Below, one piece after another: positions 44,283 through 46,590 of a stretch of DNA of 64,000 nucleotides; position 1 is the stretch's first letter; every line of letters begins with the position of its first letter. The stretch is taken from positions 65,089-129,088 of the forward strand of contig NZ_KB899636.1 in assembly GCF_000378405.1 (NCBI RefSeq), given 5' to 3'. The DNA comes from Succinimonas amylolytica DSM 2873. Its GTDB lineage: Bacteria; Pseudomonadota; Gammaproteobacteria; Enterobacterales; Succinivibrionaceae. The notes beneath the pieces are model-generated. The model had not been told where the DNA came from. It did no database searches and saw nothing but the letters and a program-made list of their open reading frames with translations. The position numbers and the translations under genes are program-made.

Positions 44283-44546
44283 TTGGCAAATATCAAGTCT
44301 GCTAAGAAGCGTGTTGTTATCGCTGAAAGAAATCGTGTTCACAATGTTGCTAAGCGTTCTGAAATGCGTACTGCCGTGAAGAAGGTAATCAATCTTTGCA
44401 AGGCCGGTGACAAAGAGGCTGCAAAGGTTGCTTTCGCAAGAGCGGAAGTTCTTCTTGACCGTGCTGCAACCAAGGGACTGATCCACATTAATAAGGCAGC
44501 CAGACATAAGTCTAACCTGAGCAAGAAAATCAAGGCTTTAGGTTAA
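44283..44546 (+). CDS. rpsT: 30S ribosomal protein S20
   Basis: Small basic protein of the 30S subunit that binds 16S rRNA. The 87 residues and the sequence [20 protein letters not shown] are typical S20. The start codon is TTG, with AGGAG upstream; no in-frame ATG fits the family start. E. coli rpsT also starts with UUG, and S20 is known to repress its own translation there through the weak start, so the rare start is probably functional here. A strong terminator follows 18 bases after the stop. Confidence 0.97.
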
Positions 44547-44564
44547 GTCAGGATTATTTTCGGA

Positions 44565-44590
44565 AACCCCTCCGCAGCGAGGGGTTTTTT
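44565..44590 (+). terminator. Intrinsic terminator of rpsT
   Basis: AACCCCTC pairs with GAGGGGTT around a short loop, followed by TTTT. Confidence 0.9.
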
Positions 44591-44831
44591 ATTGTTAGTC
44601 ATTCGGCGTTTTTCCGGTTACCGGCATTGCGCGGCACCGCTTTCCCGGAAACTCAGTCCCCAAAAACACTCCCTGCCATTATTTCCGGGATTATCGGTTA
44701 CCAGAAAAAATCTTTGCAGATAAAAGAATAGTATAATTTATACTAATAAAAGCATATAATTACCAAAAAACAGGGTAGCACTCCTTATAATTAGCCATTG
44801 TCAAAAATTGTTTAAAATTTTACAATTTTTT

Positions 44832-44861
44832 TGGAACTTTTCCCTGCAGGACTACTCTAAA
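44832..44861 (+). promoter_or_regulatory. Promoter of small-RNA unit A
   Basis: TGGAAC, 18 bases, TCTAAA, directly preceded by TTTACAATTTTTT. Unit B has the same arrangement. Confidence 0.5.
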
Positions 44862-44867
44862 CATACA

Positions 44868-44951
44868 GATTAAGTATAGAAACTTCGGTTTTCGTGTTTA
44901 GTCTCCTTCATAATACTTCTTTGTCCCATGCGGTTTCCGCATGGGTTTTTT
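44868..44951 (+). ncRNA. Putative small RNA A
   Basis: About 84 bases from a predicted start to a very strong intrinsic terminator (CCCATGCGG, loop TTT, CCGCATGGG, then TTTTTTATTTT, 44925-44951). There is no open frame of useful length. The U-rich tail fits an Hfq-type small RNA. No known family is recognised. Confidence 0.5.
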
Positions 44952-45019
44952 ATTTTCTGTTTGTGCAAATTCACATTTTTCAATAAAACTGCCCGTCTTT
45001 TACAATTTTTTCTAAGATT

Positions 45020-45049
45020 TTGAACTTTTTACAGTTTAAATGTTCTAAA
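45020..45049 (+). promoter_or_regulatory. Promoter of small-RNA unit B
   Basis: TTGAAC, 18 bases, TCTAAA, with TTTACAATTTTTT upstream as in unit A. Confidence 0.5.
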
Positions 45050-45055
45050 CTAGTA

Positions 45056-45129
45056 CCTGTGAAACGAAGATCCTATCTTTGTTTTTCATTCCGTGTTTTC
45101 GGTCATCCCCAACAGGATGACCGTTTTTT
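45056..45129 (+). ncRNA. Putative small RNA B
   Basis: About 74 bases: a small 5' hairpin (AAGAT/ATCTT, near 45067-45079), a U-rich single-stranded stretch, and a strong terminator (CGGTCATCC, CCAACA, GGATGACCG, six T, 45100-45129). The promoter and upstream box match unit A, which suggests duplication. Confidence 0.5.
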
Positions 45130-45135
45130 GGAGCA

Positions 45136-45165
45136 TGGACAATACGACTAGCCTTAAATTAATAT
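45136..45165 (+). promoter_or_regulatory. Promoter of small-RNA unit C
   Basis: TGGACA, 18 bases, TAATAT, beginning only six bases after the T run of unit B. Confidence 0.45.
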
Positions 45166-45171
45166 AAATTT

Positions 45172-45222
45172 AGTGCAAAAACGAAGGGCATCCCGCTTGC
45201 TGTCTAGGGGATGCCCTTTATT
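45172..45222 (+). ncRNA. Putative small RNA C
   Basis: A short predicted transcript of about 50 bases, mostly an 11-base-pair hairpin (AAGGGCATCCC with GGGATGCCCTT, 45184-45218) followed by TATT. The T tract is weaker than in A and B. It could also be a backup terminator for unit B. Confidence 0.4.
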
Positions 45223-45633: not shown

Positions 45634-46590
45634 TCAGCAGTAGCCGTATTTCATAATACGGTCATATCTCTTTTCCAGAAGAGATTCCGGAGATTCGTTT
45701 TTAAGCTCGCTCAAATCCTTCAGAAGCTGCTTCTTAAGATTTTCGGCCATCTTCTGATAATCCCGGTGCGCCCCGCCGAGAGGCTCTTCAACAATGCTGT
45801 CAATAAGCTTCAGTCTTTTTAAATCCTTGGCGGTAATATTCATGGCATCCGCAGCCAGAGGTGCCTTGTCCGCACTCTTCCAGAGAATTGAGGCGCATCC
45901 TTCGGGAGAAATTACAGAATAGGTGGCATACTGCAGCATGTTCACCCGATCTCCAACCCCAATGGCCAATGCGCCGCCGGAACCGCCTTCACCAATAACA
46001 GTGCAGATAATAGGAACTTTGAGAGCACTCATAACTTTTAGATTTCTGGCTATAGCTTCAGCCTGCCCTCTTTCCTCGGCACCTACCCCCGGATATGCGC
46101 CCGGAGTATCAATAAAGGTAATAATCGGCAACCGGAATCTCTCGGCCATCTGCATAAGACGCAACGCCTTCCGGTAACCCTCGGGACGCGGCATTCCAAA
46201 ATTTCTCATGGTTCTGGTCTGAACATTGCGGCCCTTCTGATGTCCCACCAGCATTACCGGCTCGCCGTCAATTCTGGCAATACCGCCGATAATCGCCTTG
46301 TCATCTGCATAGGCCCGGTCTCCGTGCAGCTCCTCATAATCCGTAAATATTTCCTTGATGTAGTCAAGAGTATACGGCCGCAGCGGATGACGCGAAAGGC
46401 GGGAGATCTGCCAGGCTCCCAGATCGGAAAAGGTCTTTCTGGTCATTTCCACGGCCTTTTTCTCAAGAGATGCAATCTCGTCCGAGAAATCAACGCTTTC
46501 ACCGATATTGCTGCTTACGTGCTTAAGTTCATCAATGTGAGCCAGGAGCTCTGCAATAGGCTGTTCGAAATCCAAATAATCTATATTCAT
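45634..46590 (-). CDS. accA: Acetyl-CoA carboxylase carboxyltransferase subunit alpha
   Basis: With AccD transfers the carboxyl group from carboxybiotin to acetyl-CoA, the first step of fatty-acid synthesis. The 318 residues equal the E. coli protein (319). Family features are the N-terminal helical part ([16 protein letters not shown]), [48 protein letters not shown] and [15 protein letters not shown]. It follows dnaE after a 201-base gap, the usual order. Confidence 0.97.

Follow-up and report, generated by a model that had tools for sequence, protein, structure and literature searches.

Does the DNA between the convergent genes rpsT (plus strand) and accA (minus strand) of Succinimonas amylolytica DSM 2873 hold small-RNA genes and, if so, how many, under which sigma factor and with which task? 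A preliminary description of the window, the whole 64,000-nucleotide stretch of contig NZ_KB899636.1 that was analyzed, had proposed three tandem units in this region, here called A, B and C (Table 1). The nearest homologues of the window's accA are found in Succinivibrionaceae genomes (82% identity, tblastn), and the whole arrangement is kept in two further species of the genus. A protein-coding reading of the region was rejected, since its open reading frames are small and overlapping and it is the RNA features that conservation tracks. A tilS remnant between unit B and accA was also considered, but tblastn gave no match. The plasmid collection contained no match for the region either.

Table 1. 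Features of the rpsT–accA region and of elements complementary to unit B. Positions refer to the window unless another locus is named.
Feature	Position	Strand	Description
rpsT	44283..44546	+	Ribosomal protein S20 (Pfam PF01649); upstream neighbour, syntenic in relatives
Terminator hairpin of rpsT	44562..44589	+	Terminator scan
Unit A sigma-E promoter	44833..44860	+	GGAACTT (44833-44839), 16 bases, TCTAA (44856-44860); exact pattern matches in the sequence
Unit A small RNA	44867..44951	+	About 85 nt; predicted start 6 bases past the -10
Unit A 5' hairpin	44867-44904	+	Fold
Unit A linker	44905-44924	+	UCCUUCAUAAUACUUCUUUG; fold
Unit A terminator hairpin	44925-44945	+	Fold; U tail to 44951
Unit B sigma-E promoter	45022..45048	+	GAACTT (45022-45027), 16 bases, TCTAA (45044-45048); sequence
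Unit B small RNA	45055..45129	+	About 75 nt; predicted start 6 bases past the -10
Unit B 5' hairpin	45058-45088	+	Fold
Unit B linker	45089-45099	+	UUCCGUGUUUU; fold
Unit B terminator hairpin	45100-45123	+	Fold; U tail to 45129
"Unit C" hairpin	45183..45219	-	Best read as accA-side terminator; kept in three species
accA	45634..46590	-	Acetyl-CoA carboxylase alpha subunit; ORF and homologues named by tblastn; convergent neighbour
B-core complement	L261:2479-2505	+	One of three g11 genomes
B-core complement	L258:2525-2548	-	One of three g11 genomes
B-core complement	L260:1791-1819	-	One of three g11 genomes

The promoters of A and B have the form GGAACTT/GAACTT-N16-TCTAA, as found at the genome's own rpoE. 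The pattern GAACTTTT-N14-TCTAA occurs in this genome at both units and also 43 bases ahead of rpoE, which is followed by rseA and rseB (the RpoE gene was identified by TIGR02939, and the distance is counted to the start of the RpoE match). Across genera the invariant promoter positions are exactly GAACTT and TCTAA, 16 bases apart, and the boxes of unit B do not vary in 8 genomes of three genera. When the bare promoter pattern is searched with loose spacing, the genome as a whole shows no enrichment, with 13 occurrences versus 10 in the control. Judged by sequence, the promoters of A and B are of the sigma-E (RpoE) type and not of the sigma-70 type. The TCTAAA previously noted as common to A and B is indeed present in both, at the positions given for it. 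The accompanying reading as a -35, 18 bases and a -10, however, has to be given up, because this site is a sigma-E promoter read with shifted hexamers. TTGGAA/TTGAAC and TCTAAA can be taken for poor sigma-70 boxes, and a housekeeping sigma factor might then transcribe A and B as ordinary tandem paralogous small RNAs. This is very improbable: a generic sigma-70 scan of the region returned 5 promoters versus 3.9 by chance (sd 2.5), and sigma-70 promoters for A and B were rejected at this chance level. The cross-genus invariance of GAACTT and TCTAA at 16 bases, matching the rpoE promoter, and the dissimilar transcripts of A and B speak against it as well.

Each of the two promoters is followed by a predicted short untranslated RNA that ends in an intrinsic terminator. 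In both predicted folds a linker remains unpaired between the 5' hairpin and the terminator hairpin, 20 nt long in A and 11 nt in B (linker limits were drawn by eye from the folds). The folds have z values of -5.3 (A) and -6.3 (B) relative to shuffles, none of which was equally stable; for these two units the short transcribed stretch and the strong terminator lie where they had been proposed. Unit A is conserved in genomes G001 and G002, and in G008 and four genomes of genus g11 its hairpin sequences are altered while the linker core (CTTCATAATA) is the same. In 8 genomes from three genera, a covariance model of unit B finds matches with E values of 1e-17 to 1e-20. They have in common an invariant core of roughly 30 bases (TCTTTGTTTTTCATTCCGTGTTTTCGGTCA), the linker is likewise invariant across the three genera, and the promoter spacer, the flanks and the terminator loop vary. 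G036 and G059 gave weak matches to the B model (E about 0.001), which were discarded, as they have no sigma-E promoter of the A/B form. Conservation of the promoter-terminator pairs in related genomes had been set beforehand as a refutation test, and the pairs of A and B are kept. With several terminator-like hairpins in a region flanked by convergent genes, one might suppose that these merely end the transcripts of rpsT and accA and that no RNA genes lie in between. We give this explanation a very small chance, since rpsT has a terminator of its own and invariant promoter boxes and linkers beside variable spacers and loops in several genera would be left unexplained.

Unit C behaves differently. 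Its proposed promoter reads TGGACA-18-TAATAT in the window and TGGTCA-22-TATTAT in the third species of the genus, so the spacing is not kept. On the minus strand, past the end of accA, the T-rich tail is conserved, whereas the plus-strand tail decays. With neither a conserved promoter nor a conserved plus-strand terminator, C was rejected as a third RNA gene; it is probably a terminator of the accA side, and perhaps its hairpin acts in both directions in some species. The number of predicted tandem small-RNA genes is consequently two instead of three. Between the unit B terminator and the C hairpin, ACGACTAGCCTTAAA (window:45142-45160) does not differ among the three species of the genus.

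The preliminary description had further likened the units to paralogous small RNAs. A and B are tandem and have promoter boxes and architecture in common, but their transcript sequences are unlike; they are not adjacent copies with a common transcript sequence, and their paralogy is unproven. The upstream TTTACAATTTTTT box that had been taken as a sign of duplication is present at both units. It belongs to an A/T-rich tract that precedes most sigma-E units of the family and therefore does not by itself prove duplication. We surveyed 54 Succinivibrionaceae genomes over as much as 1300 bases on the downstream side of rpsT and detected 23 units, each consisting of a sigma-E promoter and a terminator, in 15 genomes of 6 genera (g1, g6, g7, g8, g11 and g12); the opposite strand gave 2, reversed sequence 2 and shuffles a mean of 0.35. 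In the other genera of the family, of which there are many, no units were found within this range. G013 has near-identical tandem units at rpsT, G014 and G005 have them at other sites, and the pair of G004 is non-identical (near-identical tandem units of other genera: L015, L016 and L023). From such pairs in other genera it follows that pairs are frequent and that some were born of duplication. Tandem pairs of sigma-E promoter and terminator with CTTCTT-type linkers are also present away from rpsT in other genera (L016:1348-1509, L018:1360-1640, L023:1524-1850). G032 seems to hold three units, as a third sigma-E unit with the linker CTCCTTCATATAAG lies between the A and B homologues (L011, reverse strand near 1056).

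Which mRNAs could be addressed by unit A? In a genome-wide search with the complement of its linker, the start codon of ompA (1 mismatch in 14) was among the top matches, and three lamB genes were matched at the start codon with 2 mismatches each. The identities of OmpA and LamB are supported by Pfam. In the window's genome the predicted helix of A with ompA comprises 10 bp and 5 bp around one mismatch. Its energy of -17.2 is reached by 20 of 329 sampled genes, and in a second test 43 of 1030 background windows were as good (the energy backgrounds comprise the window and 400 kb of sampled stretches). For lamB the energy is -19.0 and 4 of the 329 genes are as good, which is better than for ompA but not unique. 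In the window's genus, lamB may now be the more important target. The three lamB-like porin genes lie within about 14 kb and have an identical start region, GGAATTATTATGAAGGCAAAATGG (G000:C1:1050661, 1059566 and 1064197; L164, L165 and L263).

Energies from the window's genome do not by themselves settle the case. The stronger argument comes from relatives of three other genera, whose own linkers form longer predicted helices with ompA, namely 16 bp in G007, 18 Watson-Crick bp in G008 and 21 bp in G012 and G032 (G-U allowed), with energies of -22.6 to -30.6. For G007, G008 and G012 none or one of the 1030 background windows matches the cognate energy, and 0 of 2000 shuffled ompA windows was as good in each case. 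The cognate assignment of linkers to ompA is the best of 24 permutations, which covers four genera only. G031 of genus g8 reaches -26.0 (0 of 300 shuffles as good), and in G022, a g11 species, a one-base change leaves a 12-bp helix. Elsewhere in the family, the sigma-E units of G004, G005, G013 and G014 give a mixed picture in their fit to ompA. Taken over the genera, linker and ompA leader appear to change together. It is nevertheless conceivable, though quite unlikely, that A and B are driven by sigma-E while ompA and lamB are not the main targets of A here; the anti-Shine-Dalgarno-like linker would then have other mRNAs as targets or a broad action, and its pairing with ompA would be ancestral only. 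The CUCCUU of the linker is able to pair with any Shine-Dalgarno sequence, and such a scenario would account for the weak discrimination of ompA in the window's own genome and for the linkers of some other genera, which fit this ompA better than its own linker does. It agrees poorly with the position of the ompA match and of the three lamB matches, all exactly over the start codon, and with the joint change of linker and leader in relatives.

For unit B, searches with 11- and 13-base seed complements in four genomes, where part of the places were inspected, gave no convincing outer-membrane start site. In three genomes of genus g11 (G012, G022 and G032) a complement of the B core is located in the intergenic region flanked by genes for an OLD-like ATPase and an NAD-synthetase-like protein. 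Predicted duplexes of the B core with this element have energies of -49 to -61 kcal/mol. A terminator-like hairpin lies downstream of the element, and the short hydrophobic reading frames overlapping it are not conserved. The element could represent a decayed antisense copy of B, a sponge, or a small mRNA under the control of the sigma-E RNA.

Taken together, A and B probably constitute the noncoding arm of the sigma-E envelope-stress response, or a part of it, as a tandem pair in which A would repress ompA and lamB via the predicted pairing. Most likely, unit A is a sigma-E-induced antisense repressor of outer-membrane proteins that acts in the manner of MicA or VrrA. Outer-membrane stress would free RpoE from RseA, and RpoE would transcribe A and B. 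Together with Hfq, the linker of A would then pair over the start codon of the ompA and lamB mRNAs; in several relatives the predicted pairing takes in the Shine-Dalgarno region of the target too. Ribosomes would presumably be blocked and less OmpA and LamB synthesized. B, with its invariant UUCCGUGUUUU linker, is expected to use the same mechanism against another target. The genome has two Hfq-family genes (G000:C1:882559-882744 and 987598-987777, with 105 and 74 bits). A more far-reaching proposal, which we put forward tentatively and consider unlikely, is that the sigma-E arm of the family consists of lineage-specific tandem arrays that grow by duplication and whose seeds co-evolve with ompA, and that B has a dedicated partner RNA.

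Succinivibrionaceae are a family of gut and rumen bacteria, and our literature search returned no small-RNA work for them. A and B therefore represent a concrete, testable candidate for their sigma-E small-RNA arm. Across the genera, moreover, the apparent joint change of an antisense RNA and its ompA target can be followed as a natural series. The earlier impression that A and B belong to no known family was borne out, as neither the region nor any of 8 related loci matched an Rfam family at the gathering score. LhrC and Hrs10, the best matches at E<=5, are far below threshold and were dismissed as noise.

Among known RNAs, MicA of Escherichia coli and Salmonella (RF00078) resembles A in its sigma-E type, its length of about 70-85 nt, its intrinsic terminator and its complementarity to the translation start of ompA. 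ompA was the first known target of MicA, whose gene lies between luxS and gshA and which pairs via its 5' linear region (PMC4618604). In A, by contrast, the linker predicted to pair sits inside the RNA with a hairpin on either side, the gene is located at rpsT, and RF00078 is not matched even at E<=5. The tasks of the sigma-E noncoding arm are split among two or three RNAs (PMC11005410). RybB and MicL of E. coli and Salmonella are further members of this arm, and A and B may share work likewise; RybB and MicL are encoded at separate loci, however, and A and B have no Rfam match to them.

Two sigma-E RNAs in one genome are also found in Vibrio cholerae, where OmpA is a target of both VrrA and MicV (PMC11005410); repression of ompA by VrrA is described in PMC2628432. 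No Rfam family matched the A/B region. VrrA is 140 nt long and, as far as we know, does not form one tandem pair with MicV. In sequence, A has no detectable kinship to MicA or VrrA. The 86-nt, Hfq-bound Rna01 of Actinobacillus pleuropneumoniae has the promoter GAACTT-16-TCTTA, starts 6 bases past the -10, folds like MicA and is predicted to have outer-membrane targets (PMC9577009). Going by this published description, Rna01 is like A and B in promoter form, start spacing and size, but it is a single gene between sbcB and eriC. A and B are new to Rfam and, by their predicted properties, lie within the known functional class of sigma-E small RNAs (MicA, RybB, MicL, VrrA, MicV, Rna01). To our knowledge, their compact tandem layout differs from the scattered sigma-E RNA genes of E. 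coli and Vibrio.
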